Source: a virus
Virus record (IMG/VR): IMGVR_UViG_3300027902_000011
Location: 1 to 59,783 of that record
Direction: 5' to 3' (one strand)
Length of the DNA stretch: 59,783 nucleotides
A program made the position numbers and the translations under genes. Under the pieces are notes generated by a model. That model worked only from the letters and a program-made list of their open reading frames with translations, searched no databases and was not told where the DNA came from. Shown one piece after another: positions 17,687 to 25,962 of this stretch; position 1 is the first letter of the stretch, and each line of letters begins with the position of its first letter.

Positions 17687-17760
17687 TGGTGCTCCCGAGT
17701 GGAGTCGAACCACTAGCACGTCCTTACCAAAGACGTAGTCTGCCGTTAGCCTACGAGAGC
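17687..17760 (-). tRNA. tRNA-Thr (GGU)
   Basis: Acceptor GCTCTCG/CGGGAGC, anticodon loop TTGGTAA, canonical T-loop TTCGACT, CCA encoded. The CCA end overlaps a late promoter box for the SGNH gene. Confidence 0.85.
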
Positions 17761-17765
17761 GTTGT

Positions 17766-17837
17766 TGGTCGCGCAGGACGGTGCCGACCCGTCTGCAGAG
17801 CCCTTATGAGGAGCTCCTGGATGCCGATCCCAGCGCG
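17766..17837 (-). tRNA. tRNA-Met (CAU), atypical elbow
   Basis: Anticodon loop CTCATAA on a five-pair stem, acceptor CGCGCTG/CTGCGCG with one T-T mismatch, D-stem GGAT/ATCC with a 4-nt loop, T-loop GTCGGCA instead of TTC-type, CCA encoded. C1-G72 pairing suggests an elongator. Confidence 0.7.
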
Positions 17838-17901
17838 GAGATTACTCTGTATGTCATTCTTGCCCTCCAAGGGCAAGAACGTCGTATAGAACAATCGGTG
17901 T
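17838..17901 (-). other. tRNA spacer with 9-bp hairpin
   Basis: A perfect stem TTCTTGCCC/GGGCAAGAA with a 5-nt loop (17857-17879) lies in a spacer longer than the usual 5-6 nt. It has no T-tract, so a processing or pausing structure is more likely than a terminator. Confidence 0.4.
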
Positions 17902-17972
17902 TGGATGGGGACGAGCGGATTTGAACCCTCTTCATCGGCTTCAAAGGCCGACTTGCCACCTTGGTATCCCCA
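17902..17972 (-). tRNA. tRNA-Gln (UUG)
   Basis: Acceptor TGGGGAT/GTCCCCA, anticodon loop CTTTGAA, T-loop TTCAAAT, CCA encoded. Starts with T as usual for Gln. Confidence 0.85.
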
Positions 17973-17977
17973 GTGAT

Positions 17978-18052
17978 TGGAGCGGACAGCGAGTAACGAT
18001 CTCGCCTCATCTGCTTGGAAGGCAGTGGCCCATCCGTCTAGACCATGTCCGC
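17978..18052 (-). tRNA. tRNA-Gly (UCC)
   Basis: Acceptor GCGGACA/TGTCCGC, anticodon loop CTTCCAA, CCA encoded. Confidence 0.85.
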
Positions 18053-18056
18053 GTGT

Positions 18057-18131
18057 TGGAGCTGCCAGGGGGATTCGAACCCCCGTTCCCCGCTTGAAAG
18101 GCGGCGTGTCCTTCCTATAGACGATGGCAGC
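18057..18131 (-). tRNA. tRNA-Glu (UUC)
   Basis: Acceptor GCTGCCA/TGGCAGC, anticodon loop CTTTCAA, T-loop TTCGAAT, CCA encoded. Confidence 0.9.
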
Positions 18132-18137
18132 GTGAAT

Positions 18138-18227
18138 TGGCGGAGTGCCTCGGGATTGAACCGAATACGCTCTTGCATATACTTGGTTTAGCAAACCAGT
18201 GCCGGAACCCTCCGACCAGTACACTCC
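18138..18227 (-). tRNA. tRNA-Ser (GCU)
   Basis: Acceptor GGAGTGT/GCACTCC, discriminator G, loop TTGCTAA, long variable arm (TATGC/GCGTA), CCA encoded. Confidence 0.85.
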
Positions 18228-18306
18228 TGGAGCCCTCCGTGGGACTCGAACCCACATTCTCCAGTTACGGTTCCAAAGTTTAGGAAACTCGGCCGATTAG
18301 GAGGGC
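18228..18306 (-). tRNA. tRNA-Arg (CCU), no standard D-arm
   Basis: Acceptor GCCCTCC/GGAGGGC, anticodon loop TTCCTAA, T-stem GTGGG/CCCAC. Only about 8 nt separate acceptor and anticodon stems. The variable region is expanded and contains CCGTAACTGGA, shared with the Arg UCU and UCG genes. Confidence 0.65.
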
Positions 18307-18313
18307 ATGAAGT

Positions 18314-18396
18314 TGGTGCACGTCGCAGGACTCGAACCCGCATTTTCAGATCCAGTTACGGATAGTCGTTTAGAAGACGACCTCGTCTAGACGTGC
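18314..18396 (-). tRNA. tRNA-Arg (UCU), overlapped by an endonuclease gene
   Basis: Acceptor GCACGTC/GACGTGC, anticodon arm GTCGT-CTTCTAA-ACGAC. Only 8 nt stand in place of the D-arm, and the 23-nt variable region contains ATCC-GTAACT-GGAT. The endonuclease frame runs through its 5' half and stops at TAA in the anticodon loop. Confidence 0.7.
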
Positions 18397-18879
18397 TTGT
18401 TTACAGTTATCGAAATGGTATCGGTGCATATTCGGGCCTCGTCCTTCTTTTAGACAAAAAGGACAAGTATACTTGATCAAGTTATGATGAGTTCCATCAT
18501 CAAGTCGTCTCTGAGCTGTCTTACGTTGAATCTCACCACCCAAGAAAGGGTGTATTTCTTCAACAACTTGTTTTCTATTGTTTTCTTTGCCCAAGAATGG
18601 ATGAGTTCCTTTAGCAACCCGCTTATGGTTTTCCAGACTTGCTAACTCTGAAATGACTTGAGGAGACAATTTCATTCTTTGAGCTATTCTATAACAGGCG
18701 GCATAGTCGCCCTGCTCTAGATGGATCTCATAGTGATTCTGGATAGTCGTCGCCAACAGGTTCTCAATCCGGTTGTTGGTCTTGTCGCCGTCTTTGTGGT
18801 GAATCTCATAGGCACGACCATCCGCTTCCCGTGGGATGGGACCGTAGTGCTGCTCATAGATTTTTCTATAAATATGCAT
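18370..18879 (-). CDS. HNH homing endonuclease, 3' end inside tRNA-Arg
   Basis: 169 aa from ATG 18879. The N-terminal HNH reads YRKIYEQHYGPIPREADGRAYEIHHKDGDKTN-type, with N at IENLLATT. The C-terminus has a zinc-ribbon-like CPFCLKEG...HFDNCK. Paralogues are at 49950 and 53472, which end soon after FDNCK. Here the frame continues seven codons into the tRNA-Arg (UCU) gene and stops in its anticodon loop. Late promoter and conserved leader hairpin precede it. Confidence 0.88.
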   Translation of the reverse strand: MHIYRKIYEQHYGPIPREADGRAYEIHHKDGDKTNNRIENLLATTIQNHYEIHLEQGDYAACYRIAQRMKLSPQVISELASLENHKRVAKGTHPFLGKENNRKQVVEEIHPFLGGEIQRKTAQRRLDDGTHHNLIKYTCPFCLKEGRGPNMHRYHFDNCKQARLDEVVF

Positions 18880-18941
18880 GCTGGCCTCCGTCAAGGTTAG
18901 AGCCGGTGGGTCTGATCACCGTGACCGGCGTTCTATTTATA
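18880..18941 (-). promoter_or_regulatory. Late promoter plus conserved leader hairpin, copy 3
   Basis: TATAAATA (18941-18934), then GCCGGT/ACCGGC (18929-18924/18907-18902). The inner stem is GGT/ACC where other copies have GGA/TCC, a compensatory change. CTAACC and a GGAGGCC ribosome region lead to ATG 18879. Confidence 0.85.
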
Positions 18942-18954
18942 GACCTAGATTTAT

Positions 18955-19030
18955 TGGAGCACCAGGCGAGACTCGAACTCGCATATAACAGCTTTGCAGG
19001 CTGCCCCGTGACCTCTCCGGGCACTGGCGC
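18955..19030 (-). tRNA. tRNA-Cys (GCA)
   Basis: Acceptor GCGCCAG/CTGGTGC, loop CTGCAAA, T-loop TTCGAGT, CCA encoded. Confidence 0.85.
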
Positions 19031-19035
19031 GTGAT

Positions 19036-19106
19036 TGGCTACGGACACCGGACTCGAACCGATCTCGTCAGCTTCAGAGGCTGACTTCCCGCCTTGGGTA
19101 TCCGCA
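19036..19106 (-). tRNA. tRNA-Gln (CUG)
   Basis: Acceptor TGCGGAT/GTCCGTA, loop CTCTGAA, T-loop TTCGAGT, CCA encoded. Confidence 0.85.
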
Positions 19107-19110
19107 GTGA

Positions 19111-19326
19111 TTACTCTACGTCGAAGAAGTGAAAGGCGCCGGCGCCGATCATCGCGATCGCGCCGCCGTGCGGCCACTGGTACAGGCGGTTCGTGACCAT
19201 CCCGTCCGCGTCTGACCATGCCTCCAGAGACTCGTGCTCGTCGCGAGTGATCGAGCGACGACCGTAGACCATCTCCATCGTCATCTCGTGGGAGGCGCGC
19301 TGCTCCTCGGGTCCCATCTCAGCCAT
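19111..19326 (-). CDS. Small protein within the tRNA operon
   Basis: 71 aa from ATG 19326, with AGGAGAAGAAG directly upstream. Sequence MAEMGPEEQRASHEMTMEM and on, GC-rich like the core genome rather than like the endonucleases. No family is recognised. It lies 5 nt from tRNA-Gln and 14 nt from tRNA-Pro, so it must be translated from the tRNA precursor transcript. Confidence 0.7.
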   Translation of the reverse strand: MAEMGPEEQRASHEMTMEMVYGRRSITRDEHESLEAWSDADGMVTNRLYQWPHGGAIAMIGAGAFHFFDVE

Positions 19327-19339
19327 CTTCTTCTCCTGT

Positions 19340-19415
19340 TGGTCTCCGCACGGTGTTCTGCCCACCGACCTCCTGCTTCCAAGGCAGGTACTCTTCTAGC
19401 ACGAGCTTTGCAGAG
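19340..19415 (-). tRNA. tRNA-Pro (UGG), atypical T-loop
   Basis: Acceptor CTCTGCA/TGCGGAG, loop CTTGGAA, T-stem CGGTG/CACCG with loop GGCAGAA, CCA encoded. The same T-arm occurs in tRNA-Pro (CGG). Confidence 0.8.
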
Positions 19416-19420
19416 TTGAA

Positions 19421-19479
19421 TGGCACCCCGGAACTTTTGTGCAGCTGAGCCATCCTACGATGACTTACTTAGCCGGGGT
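19421..19479 (-). tRNA. Minimal tRNA-like element (59 nt), identity unknown
   Basis: Acceptor ACCCCGG/CCGGGGT with G-CCA end, a 7-nt link, hairpin GTCAT-CGTAGG-ATGGC, and a short T-arm-like AGCT/AGTT. It lacks a D-arm. It occupies a normal tRNA slot with the usual spacing. It could be a degenerate or armless tRNA. Confidence 0.4.
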
Positions 19480-19488
19480 TGTTTCGAA

Positions 19489-19564
19489 TGGAGGTTCCAC
19501 CCCGACTCGAACGGGGAACTCGACCTTCGCAGGGTCGTGATTTATCCAGTTAAACTATGGAACC
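19489..19564 (-). tRNA. tRNA-Arg (GCG)
   Basis: Acceptor GGTTCCA/TGGAACC, loop CTGCGAA, normal D-arm with CTGG, CCA encoded. It differs from the other three Arg tRNAs in having a standard D-arm. Confidence 0.85.
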
Positions 19565-19569
19565 GTGAT

Positions 19570-19644
19570 TGGCAGGGCCTACGGGAATCGAACCCGTCTT
19601 GCTCGGTTGAGAACCGAGTTTCCTAGCCGATAGAAGAAGGCCCC
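19570..19644 (-). tRNA. tRNA-Glu (CUC)
   Basis: Acceptor GGGGCCT/AGGCCCT, loop TTCTCAA, T-loop TTCGATT, CCA encoded. Confidence 0.85.
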
Positions 19645-19649
19645 TTGAT

Positions 19650-19726
19650 TGGCTCCAGCGGCTGGTTCCGACCCAGCATCGACATGAGTTAACAGCTCAC
19701 CGTCCTTACCATTTGACTACGCTGGA
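19650..19726 (-). tRNA. tRNA-Asn (GUU)
   Basis: Acceptor TCCAGCG/CGCTGGA, loop CTGTTAA, T-loop GTCGGAA (first T replaced), CCA encoded. Confidence 0.8.
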
Positions 19727-19734
19727 ATGAAAGT

Positions 19735-19806
19735 TGGTGGAGTAATCGGGTACCGCCCCCGACGCGACAATCTTGCAAGGATCGTCTGCACCCTTGTGCC
19801 TACCCC
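19735..19806 (-). tRNA. tRNA-Ala (UGC), atypical elbow
   Basis: Acceptor GGGGTAG/TTACTCC, loop CTTGCAA, D-stem GCAC/GTGC with 4-nt loop AAGG, T-loop GGCGGTA, CCA encoded. No U8 is apparent. Confidence 0.75.
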
Positions 19807-19811
19807 GTTGT

Positions 19812-19886
19812 TGGTCCCCTAGAACGGAATCGAACCGCTGACGCACTCCTCTTCAGGGAGCCGCTCTACCACTGAGCTACACGGGG
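19812..19886 (-). tRNA. tRNA-Phe (GAA)
   Basis: Loop CTGAAGA, standard D- and T-arms; acceptor CCCCGTG/CTAGGGG has two internal mismatches. CCA encoded. Confidence 0.75.
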
Positions 19887-19892
19887 TTGTGT

Positions 19893-19966
19893 TGGCGCGG
19901 AATGTGGGAGTCGAACCCACGCTGCGAGTGTGGCACACTCGTCGACTGCCGTAATCTTTATTCCGC
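19893..19966 (-). tRNA. tRNA-Gly (GCC)
   Basis: Acceptor GCGGAAT/ATTCCGC, loop GTGCCAC, CCA encoded. Its first 9 nt are also the last codons of the preceding endonuclease, whose TAA stop lies at the acceptor end. Confidence 0.85.
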
Positions 19967-20395
19967 TTTGATCTTGTTTTTTCCGCAATATGTCGGTGTC
20001 TGTGCATGACAGTTAGGACACAATATGCGTAAATTTTTTAACTTATGATTTTTTGAATTACCGTCAACGTGATCAAGGTGCATTGACAGCGGCTTCTTAT
20101 TCCATTCTGTTATCCCACATTCTTCACACTTATTACTTTTGACGCCTTCCTTAAGAAGTCTTCTTTTAAGATGTGGAGTAGGATACTGAGGATGCTGGCC
20201 ATCGAGAATTTCATCTAAAGCAATGGGTTTCTGATATCCGCCATTTACGAAGGTCAAGCCGAGTTTTTGTGCTCGTCTAAAGATAGTTATATCGGGAACC
20301 AAGAATTTAGCAGCCAGACGCCCAAGTGTGGGTTCTTTATTGTAGGCGCTAATGAGTTCTTGATCAGTAAATCTGTCTTTGTGTTTCTGCTGCAT
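19958..20395 (-). CDS. HNH endonuclease with Cys4 zinc site
   Basis: 145 aa. N-terminal helical region with a possible HTH (LGRLAAKFLVPDITIFRRAQ). HNH core: CEECG, LSMHLDHVDGNSKNHKL, ILCPNCHAQTPTYCGKN, with catalytic His and Asn and two zinc CxxC pairs. The stop codon TAA lies in the acceptor stem of tRNA-Gly (GCC). A TATATATA box 4 nt before ATG 20395 implies a near-leaderless message. Confidence 0.88.
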   Translation of the reverse strand: MQQKHKDRFTDQELISAYNKEPTLGRLAAKFLVPDITIFRRAQKLGLTFVNGGYQKPIALDEILDGQHPQYPTPHLKRRLLKEGVKSNKCEECGITEWNKKPLSMHLDHVDGNSKNHKLKNLRILCPNCHAQTPTYCGKNKIKAE

Positions 20396-20456
20396 ATTCT
20401 ATATATACAATCAGTTTTGAAAACAGACTTTAACATGGGATCAAATTTTACGAGAA

Positions 20457-20540
20457 TGGTCCGCTACCTAGGAATCGAACCTAGCAGGCTATAAGCGCAG
20501 CTTTTACAGAGCCGCTCAGTCCCCAGACTTGCCGTAACGG
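20457..20540 (-). tRNA. tRNA-Tyr (GUA)
   Basis: Acceptor CCGTTAC/GTAGCGG, loop CTGTAAA, long variable arm, T-loop TTCGATT, CCA encoded. Confidence 0.88.
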
Positions 20541-20546
20541 TTGAGT

Positions 20547-20620
20547 TGGTTGCGCAGCTACGAGTTACACGTAGGTCCTAAGTTTATGAGACTTAGATGG
20601 GGTTCCTCCACTACCGCGCC
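20547..20620 (-). tRNA. tRNA-Met (CAU), initiator-like
   Basis: Loop CTCATAA on TAAGT/ACTTA; acceptor GGCGCGG/CTGCGCA has a G-A mismatch at position 1-72, the hallmark of bacterial initiators. T-loop TGTAACT is unusual. The three G-C pairs typical of initiator anticodon stems are absent. CCA encoded. Confidence 0.7.
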
Positions 20621-20753
20621 GTAAGAATTGGTTGGCGAGTTGCACGCCCACGGTTTTACATCCGAACTCATGCTATTAGATTTATGCGAGCAGTAATAGG
20701 AATGAATACCTATCTCTTGGGCCGCTGGTCGCGCCGGCCCGACTGTTGCTCTA
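20621..20753 (-). other. Unassigned structured segment behind an internal promoter
   Basis: A GGGCCG/CGGCCC hairpin (about 20718-20742) lies near the expected 5' end of the transcript. An AT-rich hairpin CTATTA/TAATAG follows, and the segment ends in CCAACCA. No tRNA fold could be built. Possibly a leader or a decayed tRNA. Confidence 0.35.
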
Positions 20754-20782
20754 TTTATATCACCTCGACGATAAGTTGTCAA
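20754..20782 (-). promoter_or_regulatory. Internal early promoter of the tRNA operon
   Basis: -35 TTGACA (20782-20777), 17-nt spacer ending GGTGA, -10 TATAAA (20759-20754). It would drive tRNA-Met and the tRNAs downstream. Confidence 0.8.
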
Positions 20783-20788
20783 GGGAAT

Positions 20789-20877
20789 TGGCGGAGGGCC
20801 CGAGAATCGAACTCGATACCGTCTGGTACGTCCTGTTTTCGAGGCAGGCGCGAGGGGCCACCCCGCTTGTACCCTCC
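20789..20877 (-). tRNA. tRNA-Ser (CGA)
   Basis: Acceptor GGAGGGT/GCCCTCC, discriminator G, loop CTCGAAA, long variable arm, CCA encoded. Confidence 0.8.
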
Positions 20878-20966
20878 TGGCGGAAGACTGTGGTCTTGAT
20901 CCACAAGCACTCGCGCGCTCGTGACGCTTTCCAGGCGTACCTGCCCTCCCGAGCAGTTAGTCTTCC
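20878..20966 (-). tRNA. tRNA-Ser (GGA)
   Basis: Acceptor GGAAGAC/GTCTTCC, discriminator G, loop CTGGAAA, long variable arm, T-loop ATCAAGA, CCA encoded. Confidence 0.8.
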
Positions 20967-20970
20967 TTAT

Positions 20971-21058
20971 TGGCGGATGCCAGGCTGTGTCGATCACCAT
21001 ACCGTGAGGTACCTGCCGGGTTCAAACCGGAGACGGGAGCCGTCCCGCGTTGGCATCC
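20971..21058 (-). tRNA. tRNA-Ser (UGA)
   Basis: Acceptor GGATGCC/GGCATCC, discriminator G, loop TTTGAAC, long variable arm, weak T-stem, CCA encoded. Third of three tandem Ser genes. Confidence 0.7.
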
Positions 21059-21063
21059 TTGAA

Positions 21064-21147
21064 TGGAGGTCCCAGCAGGATTCGAACCCGCGTTTTCAGC
21101 TCCAGCTACGGTTTACGACGTTCGAAGCGTCGTTCGGCTATGGGACC
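21064..21147 (-). tRNA. tRNA-Arg (UCG), no standard D-arm
   Basis: Acceptor GGTCCCA/TGGGACC, anticodon arm CGACG-CTTCGAA-CGTCG, 8 nt between acceptor and anticodon stems, long variable region with CCGTAGCTGGA...TGAAAAC, T-loop TTCGAAT, CCA encoded. Confidence 0.7.
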
Positions 21148-21148
21148 G

Positions 21149-21517
21149 TTATTGCTCGCCGTCTCGCTTGGAGCGGCTGTGGTAGAACTTAGACATCGTG
21201 ACCTTCTGGATCAGACGGTCGTCCTTGAGGATCGAGGGACCCTTCAGCGACTTGCCGTCGATCGCCATGAACGTCGCCTCCAGCAGGTGGTCGAGGTCGG
21301 GCGAAGACGGATTGACGTAGAGGACCTCTAGGTCTATCGGATAGTCGATCGGCAGGTCTGTCTGTGCAGAGATGGATCGACGAGCTGAGTCGAGTATGTC
21401 CTCGCGGTACTGCTGAAGCGCCCGCCGGTGCATCCGCTTGTGCGGAGCGTGGTGCAGGTTGAGCTTGAGTACCGGCGGGAACGCGCTGTCGTCCAGCCTT
21501 ACGAAGTAGCCTCTCAT
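21149..21517 (-). CDS. RusA-like Holliday junction endonuclease
   Basis: 122 aa within the tRNA operon, GC-rich like the core. The second half, LYVNPSSPDLDHLLEATFMAIDG followed by ILKDDRLIQ, carries the spaced aspartates of the RusA family (D-x-D, D-G, D-D). The N-terminal LNLHHAPHKRMHRR resembles the basic RusA start. RusA-type enzymes resolve four-way junctions during recombination. The call is from motif pattern; its position between tRNA-Arg and tRNA-Ile gives no functional hint. Confidence 0.6.
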   Translation of the reverse strand: MRGYFVRLDDSAFPPVLKLNLHHAPHKRMHRRALQQYREDILDSARRSISAQTDLPIDYPIDLEVLYVNPSSPDLDHLLEATFMAIDGKSLKGPSILKDDRLIQKVTMSKFYHSRSKRDGEQ

Positions 21518-21536
21518 AACGTCCTCATAGTGTGAT

Positions 21537-21626
21537 TGGTCCGCCGTATAGGTAACGATCCTATCCGAGAAGGCTTATCTGGCCCAACTGCTTATAAGAC
21601 AGTCCTGCTCACCTGAGCTACAGCGG
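21537..21626 (-). tRNA. tRNA-Ile (UAU), enlarged variable arm
   Basis: Acceptor CCGCTGT/ACGGCGG, anticodon arm ACTGT-CTTATAA-GCAGT, D-stem GCTC/GAGC with 4-nt loop, 22-nt variable region able to form GGGC/GCCT, T-stem ATAGG/CCTAT with loop ATCGTTA, CCA encoded. Confidence 0.7.
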
Positions 21627-21631
21627 TTTAT

Positions 21632-21707
21632 TGGTCAGGGTGCGGTGTTCTGCCCACCGTCCACTTCCTTCCGAGGGAAGTAATCTTCTAACACGATATT
21701 CACCCTG
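21632..21707 (-). tRNA. tRNA-Pro (CGG), atypical T-loop
   Basis: Acceptor CAGGGTG/CACCCTG, loop CTCGGAA, T-arm CGGTG-GGCAGAA-CACCG as in tRNA-Pro (UGG), CCA encoded. Confidence 0.82.
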
Positions 21708-21712
21708 TCGAT

Positions 21713-21787
21713 TGGCGCTTCGTAGGGGAGTTGAACCCCTCTCAGCCGGTTGACAACCGGACCGCCACACCCGCAGCGTCACGAAGC
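21713..21787 (-). tRNA. tRNA-Asp (GUC)
   Basis: Acceptor GCTTCGT/ACGAAGC, loop TTGTCAA, T-loop TTCAACT, CCA encoded. Confidence 0.88.
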
Positions 21788-21793
21788 TTGTAT

Positions 21794-21876
21794 TGGTGTC
21801 CGACGTGGGACTCGAACCCACAAAAACCCGGCTTCTCAGGCCGTCAGGTGTGCCATTTTCCATAGGTCAGTCGGAC
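21794..21876 (-). tRNA. tRNA-Leu (GAG)
   Basis: Acceptor GTCCGAC/GTCGGAC, loop CTGAGAA on CGGC/GCCG, T-loop TTCGAGT, CCA encoded. Confidence 0.75.
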
Positions 21877-21881
21877 GTTTT

Positions 21882-21962
21882 TGGTGTGCCAGGTGGGGAT
21901 CGAACCCACATTTTCAACCTATTACCTTACTCGAGATTAAGAGTCACGGAGGTTACTGGCGC
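21882..21962 (-). tRNA. tRNA-like gene of uncertain identity, overlapped by an endonuclease
   Basis: Acceptor GCGCCAG/CTGGCAC (one mismatch), normal T-arm and CCA. The anticodon stem is ACTC/GAGT with an 8-nt loop TTAATCTC. The variable region (GGTAATAGG, TGAAAAT) resembles the D-armless Arg tRNAs. The endonuclease frame ends at TAA in the loop. Possibly damaged by the insertion. Confidence 0.5.
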
Positions 21963-22530
21963 GTTGTCTTGTTTTTGCTAAAGTTGTTCGTATTTTTTGC
22001 TTTGTTTCTTCGGAGCGCGGTTTACCGAACATTGGATTATTTTTGCCGGCAATCGCAGGTCTTGGACCTTTTAACCGTTCAATCGTCTCCGGTTTGTGTT
22101 TTTTACCAGTCCAACTTTTGTTACCCAGTCTCTTTTTACGTTGTGCTTCTGAATTGTGCAACTTTTCAGAATTTTTCTGAATCCACAGTTTTACTTGTTG
22201 TTTGTGGAACTCAGACTGTTTTTTGCCTTTAAACCCTGGTGATAAATTGCTGTTGATGTAGCCCCAACCGCCTTTGCCACCTGGGCACAAGTTGTAATTG
22301 GTCTCGCGATCTGGAACTACCATGATCCGCTCAGCGAGATTGATGTCGCCTTCGTTGTTTGCCTCGATCAAGATCTCAGTCTTGAAGTTCTCGATGCCGT
22401 ACTTCTTGATAGACCGCTTAAGCAACTTACCAGACCCCATGTAGCCGTCGTTGACGTCTCGAGTCTTGTGTTTGCCGATGTAGTACTTGCCGTTGACTAG
22501 ACAAGTGGTTTTGTAGATCACGTAGTGCAT
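21937..22530 (-). CDS. GIY-YIG homing endonuclease (SegB-like), 3' end in tRNA-like gene
   Basis: 197 aa. Catalytic module HYVIYKTTCLVNGKYYIGKH with DGYMGSGKLLKRSIKKYG and a Glu in NLAERIMV; NUMOD3-like basic repeats follow (SEFHKQQV, RSEETKQKI). About 64% identical by eye in the first 90 residues to its paralogue at 24184. Its stop codon lies in the anticodon loop of the downstream tRNA-like gene. A ribosome-site-sequestering hairpin with the late box in its loop precedes it. Confidence 0.9.
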   Translation of the reverse strand: MHYVIYKTTCLVNGKYYIGKHKTRDVNDGYMGSGKLLKRSIKKYGIENFKTEILIEANNEGDINLAERIMVVPDRETNYNLCPGGKGGWGYINSNLSPGFKGKKQSEFHKQQVKLWIQKNSEKLHNSEAQRKKRLGNKSWTGKKHKPETIERLKGPRPAIAGKNNPMFGKPRSEETKQKIRTTLAKTRQRASNLRDS

Positions 22531-22583
22531 TTAGTTGCCTCCTAGCAGAGGATAGCGGTCAAGCTATTTATCGTGCTAGGAGG
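22531..22583 (-). promoter_or_regulatory. Ribosome-site hairpin enclosing a late promoter
   Basis: Arms CCTCCTAGCA and TGCTAGGAGG (22583-22574/22547-22538) form a 10-bp stem that buries GGAGG. GATAAATA (22572-22565) is in the loop. A transcript from that box lacks the 5' arm, leaving the ribosome site free; read-through RNA folds it shut. Confidence 0.8.
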
Positions 22584-22589
22584 TCTATG

Positions 22590-22663
22590 TAGACCAGGTG
22601 GGGTACGATCCCACATAAATCCGATTAAAAGTCGGAGCCGTAGCCAATTCCGGTCACTGGTCC
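22590..22663 (-). tRNA. tRNA-Lys (UUU), CCA not encoded
   Basis: Acceptor GGACCAG/CTGGTCT, anticodon arm TCCGA-CTTTTAA-TCGGA. The 3' end reads A-CATAG, so CCA is missing. The endonuclease leader hairpin begins a few nt downstream. Confidence 0.8.
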
Positions 22664-22729
22664 ATGAGGCTAATCCAAGTCCCGCTGACTTTGATCGGGT
22701 GAAGAGCATCTGCTCAACTTGAACGGTGT
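22664..22729 (-). other. tRNA spacer, 66 nt
   Basis: Longer than normal spacers. Contains GAGCA/TGCTC and CCCG/CGGG short stems. No tRNA or ORF seen. Confidence 0.3.
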
Positions 22730-22803
22730 TGGTACGCGTGGTAGGTACTGCCCCTACTTGCAAACGGTTATCGGCCGCTTCCTTCGCTTCTGAGATCACG
22801 CGT
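22730..22803 (-). tRNA. tRNA-Ile (GAU), C33
   Basis: Acceptor ACGCGTG/CACGCGT, anticodon loop CCGATAA with C in place of the near-universal U33, T-arm GTAGG-GGCAGTA-CCTAC, CCA encoded. Confidence 0.7.
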
Positions 22804-22807
22804 GTGT

Positions 22808-22882
22808 TGGTGCGTCTTGTAGGAGTCGGACCTACTGCTTCCACCATGTCGGGGTGGCACTCTACCGATGAGTTAAAGACGC
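22808..22882 (-). tRNA. tRNA-Val (GAC), C33
   Basis: Acceptor GCGTCTT/AAGACGC, anticodon arm CCACC-CCGACAT-GGTGG with C33, T-loop TCCGACT, CCA encoded. Confidence 0.75.
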
Positions 22883-22888
22883 TTGAAT

Positions 22889-22962
22889 TGGTAGTCCCTG
22901 ACGGAATCGAACCATCGTGGCCGCCATGTAAGAGCGGTGTTCTCCCATTGAACTAAGGGACC
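22889..22962 (-). tRNA. tRNA-Val (UAC)
   Basis: Acceptor GGTCCCT/AGGGACT, loop CTTACAT, T-loop TTCGATT, CCA encoded. Confidence 0.85.
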
Positions 22963-22973
22963 GTGAAGTTAAA

Positions 22974-23249
22974 GCACGAAACTAATAAGCCGGATTCTGT
23001 ATAAGATGATCATCTGACTTGATCTACGGTTGCCCGCAGATTCTTTGCCACAACCCGGAACTCAACGGCTGATACTATCCTCGTTCCTGTTTGTGTCGCT
23101 CCCGATAGAGAATGGCACGTTTCACCCGAACTTAATCGGCTCGTTTCTGTTCCTCTAATCCTCAGGTTACCCTGGATGGTTGTTAACCACTATCGTGTAT
23201 CTTGGAGTCCGGACTTTCCTCCCCGTAGGGCGATCATCTGGTTTCGTGC
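22974..23249 (-). ncRNA. rnpB: RNase P RNA (phage-encoded rnpB)
   Basis: About 276 nt. P1: 5' GCACGAAAC pairs perfectly with 3' GTTTCGTGC. P2: GATGATC pairs with GATCATC. Conserved core: GGGGAGGAAAGTCCGGACTC (5' P3/P4 region), ACAGAAAC (CR-II), GGGTGAAACG, AACAGGAACGAGG, TAGATCAAGTCAG (compare TAGATGAATGACTG in E. coli) and ACAGAATCCGGCTTAT (P4 3' strand). The catalytic RNA cleaves 5' leaders from pre-tRNAs, and it lies in the middle of the tRNA operon, 11 nt from tRNA-Val. It is shorter than host type A RNAs (about 350-400 nt), with reduced peripheral helices. The endonuclease frame covers its first 60 nt. Confidence 0.92.
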
Positions 23250-23657
23250 TTTAATAGATTCAGATATTTTTTTTCGATGTTCAGGGGTTAATGCTTCTTT
23301 CTTCTTTTTGTTGTGTTTCCGTTTTCGTAAACTTTCTAAATTTTTAGGACTTAGAGAACCACCATATTTTTTAGATAATTTAAGCATGACTTCTGAAAGT
23401 TTTCTTTTATGTTCTAAACTTTTAGGAATATTTTTATTGGCTCGACCTGCATTCTTTTGTATCTCATAGATCAATTCTTGTTTAGTTATCATTCCACTAA
23501 GAGATAACCATGCACTTTTATCTTGCCATTCTCCCAATTCTTCATATCTAATTCTATGAAGGAAGGCATGTAATGTCACATTGCAACGTAACAGATTTCG
23601 CGGAGTATTAGTTCCGCCAGCATGTTCTGGTATTATATGGTGCATGTGCCAAAGCAT
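23190..23657 (-). CDS. HNH homing endonuclease, 3' end inside RNase P RNA
   Basis: 155 aa. HNH core MHHIIPEHAGGTNTPRNLLR with NVTLHAFLHRIRYEELG, then NUMOD3-like repeats (LEHKRKLSEVML, PEHRKKISESI). The last ~20 codons are the 5' end of the RNase P RNA gene; the tail GGKSGLQDTR is the translation of the universal GAGGAAAGTCC region. A GATAAATA late box 4 nt before ATG 23657 predicts a near-leaderless late message. Paralogues are at 43547 and 56585. Confidence 0.9.
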   Translation of the reverse strand: MLWHMHHIIPEHAGGTNTPRNLLRCNVTLHAFLHRIRYEELGEWQDKSAWLSLSGMITKQELIYEIQKNAGRANKNIPKSLEHKRKLSEVMLKLSKKYGGSLSPKNLESLRKRKHNKKKKEALTPEHRKKISESIKARNQMIALRGGKSGLQDTR

Positions 23658-23660
23658 AAT

Positions 23661-23798
23661 TTATTTATCCTTAGGTATTTCATTTGCACAACTAAATGGT
23701 TGATCTTGGCAGAGGATGATACGATGATCCACATAATGGACATCTTGGCGCTTCAGCTTGATCCTCTTGAGTCCCTGGTCACATAGAGTGCAGGCCAT
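23661..23798 (-). CDS. Small Cys-rich protein (45 aa)
   Basis: MACTLCDQGLKRIKLKRQDVHY and on, with an early CxxC and two further cysteines. ATG 23798 has AGGA 7 nt upstream. It lies between tRNA-Leu (UAA) and the RNase-P-linked endonuclease, and its 3' end overlaps that gene's late box. Possibly a small zinc-binding protein; function unknown. Confidence 0.5.
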   Translation of the reverse strand: MACTLCDQGLKRIKLKRQDVHYVDHRIILCQDQPFSCANEIPKDK

Positions 23799-23810
23799 GA
23801 TATTTCCTTT

Positions 23811-23887
23811 TGGTGTCCAAGGTGGGATTCGAACCCACAGCATCCTACGTTTTAAGCGCGGGTGGTCTGCCAGTTGCCTACTCGGAC
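23811..23887 (-). tRNA. tRNA-Leu (UAA)
   Basis: Acceptor GTCCGAG/CTTGGAC, loop CTTAAAA, T-loop TTCGAAT, CCA encoded. Confidence 0.8.
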
Positions 23888-23892
23888 TTGAT

Positions 23893-23968
23893 TGGTACCC
23901 CAGCCGGGAGTCGGACCCGGACTCAACTGCTTTTGAGGCAGTCCGCTTTGCCCTTTGCGTACTGGGGT
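23893..23968 (-). tRNA. tRNA-Leu (CAA)
   Basis: Acceptor ACCCCAG/CTGGGGT, anticodon arm ACTGC-CTCAAAA-GCAGT, T-loop TCCGACT, CCA encoded. Confidence 0.85.
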
Positions 23969-23971
23969 GAT

Positions 23972-24049
23972 TGGTGTTCCGAGTGAGATTCGAACTCACA
24001 CTGTACGGCTTCTGAGACCGTTGTCTGCTGCCAGTTGGACTACCGGAAC
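23972..24049 (-). tRNA. tRNA-Leu (CAG)
   Basis: Acceptor GTTCCGG/TCGGAAC, anticodon arm ACGGT-CTCAGAA-GCCGT, T-loop TTCGAAT, CCA encoded. Confidence 0.85.
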
Positions 24050-24143
24050 TTGAATTTCGTCCCTGTTTTTAATGAGGTGCCGGGAACCTCAACCGGTAAG
24101 CACAAGAGCAGATCTAGAAACCGCTCAATAGTAATCCGGCAAT
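24050..24143 (-). other. Spacer with tRNA-like hairpins
   Basis: Contains GCCGG...CCGGC pairing over about 61 nt and a hairpin GCGG-T-TTCTAGA-T-CTGC whose loop would present CTA as anticodon (reads UAG). Acceptor pairing is only five base pairs and CCA is not encoded, so a functional tRNA is doubtful. Confidence 0.3.
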
Positions 24144-24220
24144 TGGTGCGAGCCGGGGGAGTTGAACCCCCAACCACATGGTTCTAAACCATGCCGCTTT
24201 GCCTGTTTGCGTAGGCTCGC
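24144..24220 (-). tRNA. tRNA-Leu (UAG), overlapped by an endonuclease gene
   Basis: Acceptor GCGAGCC/GGCTCGC, anticodon arm CATGG-TTTAGAA-CCATG, T-loop TTCAACT, CCA encoded. The endonuclease's stop codon TAG (24184-24186) is the anticodon itself. Confidence 0.88.
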
Positions 24221-24792
24221 TTTAATGATTCTGAGATGCGGCGTTTTGTTTCTTCAGACCGTGATTTTCCATATTGAGAATTTTTTGGCCCAACATGCTT
24301 TCCAATGTGCGAACGACGCATCTTTTGTTTTGTAACGTCAGAGTGTTTTTTACCTCTCCACCATTCTTGAGATATTTGTTGTGCTAAAAGCATATTCTTA
24401 ATAGCAGATTTACGACGCTTTTCGGTGAATGGTTTTTTTACAAGAATATCTCTACAAACTTTAGCGGCCGCCCGGCGTTGTGCTAGCGGATGGGCTAAAC
24501 CATTAGCATTGACATATCCCCAGCCGCCATGGCCACCTGGACATAGGTTGTAATTAGTCTCGCGATCTGGAACGACCAAGATGCGCTCGGCAAGATTTAT
24601 GTCGTACTCGTTATTAGTTTCTATGATGACTTCGGTTACAAAATTCTCGATGCCATACTTCTTGATGGCCTGCTTAAGCAACTTACCAGACCCCATATAG
24701 CCGTCGTAAGGGTAGCGCTTCTTGAGTTTGTGTTTACCGATGTAGTACTTGCCGTTGACGAGACAAGTCGTCTTATAGATCACATAGTGCAT
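24184..24792 (-). CDS. GIY-YIG homing endonuclease (SegB-like), stops at a tRNA anticodon
   Basis: 202 aa. HYVIYKTTCLVNGKYYIGKHK, DGYMGSGKLLKQAIKKYG and NLAERILV form the GIY-YIG module; basic NUMOD3-like repeats follow (SDVTKQKMRRSH, RSEETKRRIS). The last 12 codons lie in the 5' half of tRNA-Leu (UAG), ending on its anticodon. The leader hairpin has the late box as its exact loop. Paralogue at 21937. Confidence 0.9.
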   Translation of the reverse strand: MHYVIYKTTCLVNGKYYIGKHKLKKRYPYDGYMGSGKLLKQAIKKYGIENFVTEVIIETNNEYDINLAERILVVPDRETNYNLCPGGHGGWGYVNANGLAHPLAQRRAAAKVCRDILVKKPFTEKRRKSAIKNMLLAQQISQEWWRGKKHSDVTKQKMRRSHIGKHVGPKNSQYGKSRSEETKRRISESLKRAYANRQSGMV

Positions 24793-24828
24793 TTAGTTAC
24801 CTCCAGGACTATTTATCGTCCTGGAGGT
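24793..24828 (-). promoter_or_regulatory. Perfect hairpin whose loop is the late promoter
   Basis: ACCTCCAGGAC/GTCCTGGAGGT (24828-24818/24809-24799), 11 bp, with loop GATAAATA (24817-24810). A late transcript would start about at the GGAGG of the 3' arm, freeing it. Longer transcripts would hide it. Confidence 0.85.
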
Positions 24829-24829
24829 C

Positions 24830-24901
24830 TGTGCAAGGGGCGTAGGAATTGAACCCACTCTTGTGAGGTTGGAGCTCACCGTGCTACCGTAACACTTGCC
24901 C
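24830..24901 (-). tRNA. tRNA-Trp (CCA), altered 3' end
   Basis: Anticodon arm GTGAG-CTCCAAC-CTCAC and T-arm GTGGG-TTCAATT-CCTAC are sound. The acceptor can pair GGGCAAG/CTTGCAC only with one mismatch and four extra nt, and CCA is not encoded. The junction with the endonuclease leader may have replaced the original end. Confidence 0.65.
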
Positions 24902-24904
24902 GAT

Positions 24905-24978
24905 TGGTACCGAGTGTAGGGATCGAACCTACTTTTCCGGGTCCACAGCCCAGCGTTCTACCATTGAACTAAAACGGC
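24905..24978 (-). tRNA. tRNA-His (GUG)
   Basis: Anticodon arm CTGGG-CTGTGGA-CCCGG, D- and T-arms standard, CCA encoded. The acceptor has two mismatches near its base. Confidence 0.78.
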
Positions 24979-24983
24979 GTGAT

Positions 24984-25058
24984 TGGTGCCGATCAGAGGA
25001 ATCGAACCCCTGCACCTCGCTTACAAAACGAGGCCTCTGCCACTAAGGTTAGATCGGC
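24984..25058 (-). tRNA. tRNA-Thr (UGU)
   Basis: Acceptor GCCGATC/GATCGGC, anticodon arm CTCGT-TTTGTAA-GCGAG, T-loop TTCGATT, CCA encoded. Confidence 0.85.
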
Positions 25059-25067
25059 GTGATTCTG

Positions 25068-25133
25068 GGAGACACTCAAGCGCCCGCTCAAGTGCTCCGG
25101 CGAGTAGACTCTGGACCGGGCGGTCCTCTCTAC
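25068..25133 (-). ncRNA. Two-hairpin RNA with complementary loops
   Basis: Hairpin 1 (25133-25104): GTAGA and GGACC stems around loop GCCC. Hairpin 2 (25098-25068): GGAG and CACTTGAGC stems around loop GGGC, the latter stem using two G-U pairs valid only in the minus-strand RNA. The loops are complementary, so a kissing contact is possible. It sits where a tRNA would be expected. Function unknown. Confidence 0.5.
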
Positions 25134-25138
25134 CGTGA

Positions 25139-25214
25139 TGGTGCCGACTGCAGGAATCGAACCCGCGGCCTCTACCTTACGAGGGGAGCGCTCTACCATT
25201 TGAGCTAAGCCGGC
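25139..25214 (-). tRNA. tRNA-Thr (CGU)
   Basis: Acceptor GCCGGCT/AGTCGGC, loop CTCGTAA, T-loop TTCGATT, CCA encoded. Confidence 0.85.
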
Positions 25215-25582
25215 TTGAAAGTATTTCAGTCTCGCTGGAAACCAGAGCGCGCCCTCTTGGGCCGACCTACCAGTCAAGTACCGTGAACCGGGCGTGCCAT
25301 GACAGCACGCATGCGATCCACTTGAACATTAGGTAGAGGGTGGAGGGAGAACTTGAGTGGGTTCCTCGACCCTCTGCCTAATGTGGCAGAGGAAAGAACC
25401 CTCTGCCGGTTAGGCGATATATGTCCCTTGGGGGGACAAGAAGCTATCACGCGCTTCCGAGCACCAGCCTAGTGCTGGTTTCGATATGCGCTTGGTATTA
25501 TGTCTGACCGCTCGGGTCATCTTGCTTCCTACTTTAGTTGCTGGTCGGAACTTACCCGACAAGGAATCGTCCATTGCTTCTA
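25215..25582 (-). ncRNA. Structured leader of the tRNA operon with a 23S rRNA-like segment
   Basis: 368 nt between the second operon promoter and the first tRNA, without a plausible gene. Stems include GGCAGAGG/CCTCTGCC, a 14-bp ATTAGG... stem around 25331-25386, TGTCCC/GGGACA, ACCAGC/GCTGGT, TGACC/GGTCA and GCGTGC/GCACGC. Positions 25567-25543 read as the conserved 23S rRNA segment containing TTGTCGGGTAAGTTCCGAC. Probably transcribed and processed; role unknown. Confidence 0.5.
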
Positions 25583-25611
25583 TATATATCACGACGCGGA
25601 ATAGATGTCAA
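25583..25611 (-). promoter_or_regulatory. tRNA-operon promoter, proximal
   Basis: -35 TTGACA (25611-25606), 17-nt spacer ending CGTGA, -10 TATATA (25588-25583). Confidence 0.85.
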
Positions 25612-25677
25612 CTCGCGACAACTTTTTTTCCGGGTCTTTTCTCGAACGATCGGTGCCGGTGCATCAATCGTAGACAG

Positions 25678-25706
25678 ATAGTACACTATTCACGGTTATT
25701 TGTCAA
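25678..25706 (-). promoter_or_regulatory. tRNA-operon promoter, distal
   Basis: -35 TTGACA (25706-25701), 17-nt spacer ending AGTG, -10 TACTAT (25683-25678), in tandem 95 bp upstream of the proximal one. Confidence 0.8.
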
Positions 25707-25728: not shown

Positions 25729-25962
25729 TCAAGCACTTAGGTCGCGGCGCTGGATTATGTAGTACTTGTCGGGCTTCTCGAGCACCATGAAGAGCCTGGC
25801 GTAGGGGTCGAGTATCTTCTCGCCGTCTATCCTGACGGCGCCCTGCTCGATGGCGCGGCGCGCCTCGGACTTGGTCTTACACAGACCAGCGAGCACGTAC
25901 AGCTCGGCGACTTCTTTGCCGACCGGGGGTACCCGAGATTCTGATGCGATCAACGGTATCAT
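25729..25962 (-). CDS. S4-domain RNA-binding protein
   Basis: 77 aa if started at ATG 25962, which lies just past the hairpin ending the upstream gene. VAELYVLAGLCKTKSEARRA, IEQGAVRIDGEKILDP is a compact S4 fold as in the tail of tyrosyl-tRNA synthetase and ribosomal S4. It might bind structured RNA. It sits immediately upstream of the tRNA operon promoters. The longer frame (to 26118) overlaps the upstream gene and is not preferred. Confidence 0.65.
   Translation of the reverse strand: MIPLIASESRVPPVGKEVAELYVLAGLCKTKSEARRAIEQGAVRIDGEKILDPYARLFMVLEKPDKYYIIQRRDLSA

Follow-up and report, generated by a model that had tools for sequence, protein, structure and literature searches.

The stretch of DNA analysed here – referred to throughout as the window – is the full 59,783-bp extent of an IMG/VR virus record from a T4-like phage. 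Its gene set includes UvsX, a gp43-type polymerase, SbcCD-like gp46/47, a UvsW-type helicase, a scaffold protein and a major head protein; the polymerase is ~43% identical to that of the nearest phage in our comparison collection. On the minus strand ARAGORN identifies an array of 26 tRNA genes (17687..25214), within which lie a class A RNase P RNA that looks complete (22970..23249, minus strand; RF00010, 170.9 bits, E 2.7e-54) and scattered homing endonuclease genes of NUMOD3, HNH and SegE-like types (24184-24792, 23190-23657 and 21937-22530, all minus strand). The array is preceded by a structured leader RNA of 363 nt (25215..25577, minus strand; MFE -145.7 kcal/mol, z -5.54), and directly upstream of the leader region is a gene for a 77-aa S4-domain RNA-binding protein that resembles the C-terminal part of TyrRS (25729..25962, minus strand; PF01479 / PF22421). 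Two sigma70-like promoters, P1 (TTGACA-17-TACTAT, 25678..25706) and P2 (TTGACA-17-TATATA, 25583..25611), are predicted on the minus strand; each is a consensus match only, at 10/12 positions, and each has a perfect TTGACA box.

A search for relatives of the phage by way of the S4-domain gene returned only relatives at 34-41%, none of which carries the rRNA-like segment described below. Two other records (L017 ~2713 and L018 ~5001) also have small stand-alone S4-domain proteins of this TyrRS C-terminal-like kind, beside or within phage tRNA arrays.

The feature of interest lies at the start of the leader, downstream of both promoters and ~9 nt from the predicted P2 start (~25576). Here the minus strand, read from 25567 to 25543, is ATTCCTTGTCGGGTAAGTTCCGACC, and all 25 of its 25 nucleotides are identical to bacterial 23S rRNA: it is a copy of A1938-C1962, in rRNA sense and on the same strand as the tRNA operon. 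The copy comprises a 5′ AUUCC plus the complete helix-71 (H71) stem-loop (25544..25560), with stem GUCGG/CCGAC and loop GUAAGUU (in the DNA, GTCGG at 25560-25556, GTAAGTT at 25555-25549 and CCGAC at 25548-25544). In the fold of the 371-nt leader the stem pairs have predicted probabilities of 0.86-0.94, and thus both the site sequence and the stem-loop of the rRNA are kept, as a mimic of rRNA would have it. The E. coli numbering was set from the sequence; it agrees with that of the 23S residues A1937, U1939, U1940, C1941, C1942 and U1943, which are named in the same order in PMC6235398. A BLAST comparison against phages and E. coli, in which the matches were rRNA genes, gives a 29-nt alignment at 96.6% identity: past the 25 nt, T1963 is replaced by A, after which GCA matches again (CCAGC against CCTGC in 23S).

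That such an identity should arise by chance is ruled out by the number of 25-nt matches expected between the 59,783-nt window and one 23S sequence (3e-7); the second-best 23S match within the whole window is 12 nt long. A preliminary description of this DNA had placed a 25-nt 23S identity on the minus strand at 25543-25567, gave its approximate E. coli positions around helix 71, noted that it forms a GTCGG/CCGAC hairpin of its own and judged it beyond chance; our analysis bears this out, with A1938-C1962 as the exact span.

Neither is the segment a real 23S gene or fragment, or contamination, given that the flanks are unrelated to rRNA and the match is limited to 25 nt. The LSU model RF02541 gave no match across 25200-25620 even at E<=10, and the window contains no piece of the 16S 3′ end or of the GTPase-associated centre. 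The copy together with its 3′ flank, TTCCTTGTCGGGTAAGTTCCGANNAG, is absent from the 84,980 genomes scanned and is therefore not an ordinary 23S variant; genome scans with CCGANNAG variants likewise gave no match. In Rfam the leader corresponds to no family, the matches obtained being confined to tRNAs, RNase P RNA and chance matches. RNA C and RNA D of T4 are comparable as stable non-tRNA RNAs of a T4-like tRNA operon, but by cmscan neither rnaC nor rnaD showed an rRNA-like stretch.

Selection on this region of 23S across phages generally is well supported, and selection on the H71 copy in this particular phage is inferred to be likely. The H71 16-mer TTGTCGGGTAAGTTCC is present in 79 IMG/VR contigs. 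Among 46 distinct contexts – drawn from IMG/VR contigs and from a few annotated phages fetched separately – 22 are non-coding, as against 12% expected at random positions (P 2e-9); put otherwise, given the 24 coding contexts chance predicts ~3 non-coding ones. For the adjacent 17-mer GGTCCTAAGGTAGCGAA (23S 1921-1937, the I-CeuI core), 13 of 14 non-rRNA contexts are non-coding; the two probes together fall within 23S 1921-1958. The non-coding copies are spread over many unrelated phage lineages, and isolates that carry H71-type elements include the coliphages HeidiAbel_Bas97, ECO1230-10 and Bp10. As a control we used a 16-mer from the sarcin-ricin loop – one segment only, a small number for a control – which is found in 10 contigs, all of them coding or rRNA-like.

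Several 17-mer contexts re-enter 23S: two continue into H71 (L108 and L101), while in two others (L096 and L109) the 1921-1937 block is followed by nothing, or by a different hairpin that replaces H71, and then by GCACcAATGGCGT. Elsewhere unrelated hairpins stand between UUCC and CCUGCACGAAU (L041 and L062), or H71 is joined to CACGAATGG (L006 and L013). In an intergenic element of Jilinvirus and Guernseyvirinae isolates (L020, L021, L026, L028, L083 and L113) the 3′ end of 16S rRNA (GGATCACCTCCT; exact in KA2-1, with variants elsewhere) lies beside GCGAAACTCATTGTCGGGTAAGTTCC, which matches 24 of 26 nt of 23S 1933-1958. Because these two universal rRNA pieces share one strand, an RNA rather than a DNA site is indicated.

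Two other accounts of the recurrent elements were set aside. Identity of the attP/attB type, considered for the cases near integrases in Jilinvirus and P2-like phages, does not serve as a general account, the Guernseyvirinae and tRNA-array cases having no integrase there. The 16S tail and H70 each contain UCCUU, a site for MazF-type toxins, which would suit a toxin decoy; the 16S-containing composites, however, lack UCCUU in their 23S part.

The non-coding copies follow two modes: sense members (class S) are in rRNA sense and have an intact H71 hairpin, whereas class A comprises UTR segments that are antisense to 23S and have lost the hairpin. The next gene is on the rRNA-antisense strand in 28 of 32 distinct contexts and on the rRNA-sense strand in the other 4, counts that depend on crude gene calls and on lineages that are partly non-independent. 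Of 5 rRNA-sense members 4 retain CCGAC, one arm of the H71 stem, as against 0 of 22 on the antisense side; the sense members, the window among them, thus conserve the hairpin. Class A elements (L093-L110, L006, L029, L041, L045, L062, L089, L108 and others) occupy 3′ or 5′ UTRs, are antisense to 23S 1920-1975 and commonly lie between stop codon and intrinsic terminator, the motif often being 5-50 nt from the gene end or stop codon with the terminator after it. In one group (L006), where a 5′ leader holds the motif, the mRNA strand of that leader folds better than its opposite (-32.6 versus -20.3 kcal/mol), with G.U where the opposite strand has C.A.

The window copy is a member of the small class S: every gene that flanks it is on the rRNA-sense (minus) strand, and no promoter match was recognised on the plus strand. 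The antisense UTR elements are like it in being non-coding phage DNA that corresponds to the 23S 1920-1975 region, but they differ in their strand relative to transcription, in the loss of the H71 stem and in their position beside terminators. Class S is thin, and three of its members (L005, L009 and L015) are <=0.9 kb from record ends. A further phage contig (L001, 14418-14545) carries ~130 nt of Bacteroidetes-like 23S at its end; we set it aside as a sense member on account of this position and a possible chimera or assembly jump into host rRNA.

The reading that we favour, tentatively and with somewhat less than even confidence, is that selection maintains the window segment as an RNA mimic of 23S helix 71, presented to an rRNA-binding factor. 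Transcription from P1 and P2, if these predicted promoters are active, would produce an rRNA-sense leader for the tRNA/RNase P RNA operon. In this structured leader the hairpin nearest the 5′ end would be the H71 stem-loop, preceded by AUUCC and open to a factor, of the host (or of the phage), whose usual target is H71. The best-defined candidate for such a factor is the m5U1939 methyltransferase RlmD/RumA, with late 50S-assembly factors or factors that bind the subunit interface as alternatives. Once bound, the factor could be brought to the tRNA-operon transcript or titrated off ribosomes, either of which might benefit the phage.

The case for RumA/RlmD stems from its co-crystal (PDB 2BH2), in which the visible substrate RNA is 23S 1932-1961 (PMC6235398). 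The window copy, identical over 1938-1962, spans U1939 through the H71 hairpin – most of the substrate – and over that span is the same as the substrate hairpin of RumA/RlmD (and of RlmCD). It departs from the substrate at A1936-A1937, which are C and G in the window; these residues are beside the methylation site and are contacted in the RlmCD complex, a difference that counts against mimicry and leaves the copy a candidate substrate only. The suggestion of the preliminary description that the segment may be a decoy for rRNA-binding proteins or modifying enzymes therefore survives as the best available reading, with a putative mechanism: what has been added is the coverage of most of a defined enzyme substrate and the predicted position of the hairpin close to the 5′ end of the leader.

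The setting of the copy – rRNA-sense, on the tRNA-operon strand, between the 10/12 promoters and the first tRNA – is consistent with mimicry. Set against this are the small share of rRNA-sense contexts (only 4 of 32), promoters recognised by consensus only, and the reverse strand of the leader, which is nearly as unusual in its folding (z -4.99) as the minus strand (z -5.54), so that folding does not settle which strand is functional.

Precedent for leaders that mimic rRNA is found in the mRNAs of ribosomal proteins, where those for L1, L10, S8, S15 and L20 contain rRNA-mimicking operators. As in the proposed mimic, the leader copies a protein-binding site of rRNA and is presumably recognised by the factor that binds that site. 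The window copy differs in preceding phage tRNAs rather than ribosomal-protein genes, and in being letter-exact over 25 nt rather than structural; moreover, we know of no ribosomal protein that has H71 as its primary site.

An alternative, which we consider unlikely, is that the plus strand is the functional one and produces an antisense RNA complementary to 23S 1938-1962. Such an RNA would pair with the helix 69-71 interface of the free or immature 50S subunit, and would thereby block subunit joining or tether the transcript to ribosomes. Support for this alternative comes from the wider set of elements: the predominance of next genes on the rRNA-antisense strand (28 of 32), several of which have their stop codon within 5-50 nt, with a terminator after the motif; the L006 leader, with its better-folding mRNA strand and G.U in place of C.A; and the Jilinvirus and Guernseyvirinae elements, which also hold GGATCACCTCCT, complementary to the 16S 3′ end. 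In the window itself, the segment is flanked on the plus strand by a T7 tract and by TGGTATTAT, which resembles an extended -10 element. Yet the plus strand there has no gene, recognised promoter or clear terminator, and the full H71 stem, lost in antisense members, is kept; an intact hairpin would impede pairing. Furthermore, by a hand tally of transitions, the substitutions that separate class A elements from rRNA show no excess of G.U-compatible changes.

Equally improbable, in our estimation, is that the segment is a functionless relic: a short piece of host 23S, captured recently as DNA or as RNA copied to DNA. The absence of mismatches would be compatible with a recent event, and the tRNA array is a hot spot of insertions and homing endonucleases. 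But the piece, only 25 nt long, stops at the base of a single hairpin, its flanks contain no further rRNA, and the same 23S region – unlike the sarcin-ricin control – recurs in the non-coding DNA of unrelated phages. The captured rRNA piece that the preliminary description had also entertained is thus disfavoured, both by this recurrence in many unrelated phages and by edges that are sharp without mismatch.

Less probable still is that the hairpin acts as a stabiliser or processing signal, protecting the tRNA-operon transcript at its 5′ end or directing a nuclease, with rRNA no more than the source from which a convenient stable hairpin came. The hairpin begins ~16 nt into the predicted P2 transcript and belongs to a strongly structured leader, which would suit such a role; any hairpin would suffice for it, however, and neither the exact loop nor the unpaired AUUCC need have persisted.

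The region 23S 1917-1951 is a known intron hot spot, where the I-CeuI / L1931-L1951 hot spot falls. That the segment is the footprint or target of a group I intron or of a homing endonuclease directed at rRNA – the preliminary description had suggested an rRNA-targeting mobile element – is nonetheless very improbable: related phage elements do hold the I-CeuI core GGTCCTAAGGTAGCGAA and there are homing endonucleases in the array, but these are of NUMOD3/GIY-YIG/HNH types, the window has no intron, LAGLIDADG gene, I-CeuI core or other 23S flank, and the composites with the 16S 3′ end would be left unexplained.

Copying of rRNA centres in phage non-coding RNA is not unique to the window, as comparison of E. 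coli 23S with phage genomes makes plain. Pieces of 30-36 nt from 23S 1050-1084, within the GTPase-associated centre, are present in the non-coding DNA of pf16, Astolliot, UNO-G1W1, Aeromonas phage 4_4572, GAP32, BF, CBB, XacN1 and Erwinia jumbo phages. In pf16, Astolliot and UNO-G1W1 the copy is in sense and within a tRNA array; in Aeromonas phage 4_4572 it is ~270 nt from a tRNA. Three of the copies are LSU-like by cmscan (E 3e-4 to 1.6e-3). The other half of the centre, UUUGGCGUARNAGCRCAC (23S ~1083-1108), follows in 7 of 7 aligned copies after an insert of 120-250 nt, and defines an unannotated RNA of 170-290 nt in which both halves (1050-1108) are split by a structured-looking insert (L128-L134, ~2480-2775; pf16, GAP32, Aeromonas 4_4572, XacN1, Astolliot, UNO-G1W1 and BF). 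No Rfam entry matched these RNAs. Found in jumbo and T4-like phages, they share with the window an rRNA centre copied in sense and, in pf16, Astolliot and UNO-G1W1, a tRNA-array setting; they differ in the centre that is copied, in being split and in having diverged from rRNA where the window copy is exact.

Taken together, these elements allow a broader proposal, to which we give a probability approaching, though still short of, one half: that unrelated phages carry unrecognised RNA elements, either sense copies or antisense complements of rRNA centres (helices 69-71, the GTPase-associated centre, the 16S 3′ end), through which they manipulate host ribosomes or ribosome-associated factors, the window hairpin being one sense member. 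We found neither an Rfam family nor a paper that describes phage mimics of rRNA centres or anti-23S UTRs, in a literature search that covered few subscription journals, and their novelty is accordingly provisional. The elements sit where annotation pipelines do not look. If they are functional, phages would be acting on the ribosome through RNA fragments that derive from rRNA or are complementary to it, and phage takeover of translation would become testable with short, defined RNAs; related elements are at hand in isolates, both of the H71 type (HeidiAbel_Bas97, ECO1230-10 and Bp10) and of the GTPase-centre type (Pseudomonas phage pf16).

Two further regions deserve mention. In two P2-like records a conserved non-coding region of ~700 nt follows ogr (L005 ~9900-10700, and the complement of ~1-850 in L015); it contains a 22-nt direct repeat, GCTGTGAGACTGCAAGTTGATC, for which GTDB genomes gave no match, together with a sense copy of H69-H71 and a short ORF downstream. 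In Escherichia phage Bp10 (Chaseviridae; L115 967-2136) an H71-like motif, CTCACTGTCGGGTAAGTTTC, lies within 1.2 kb that is free of annotated genes.
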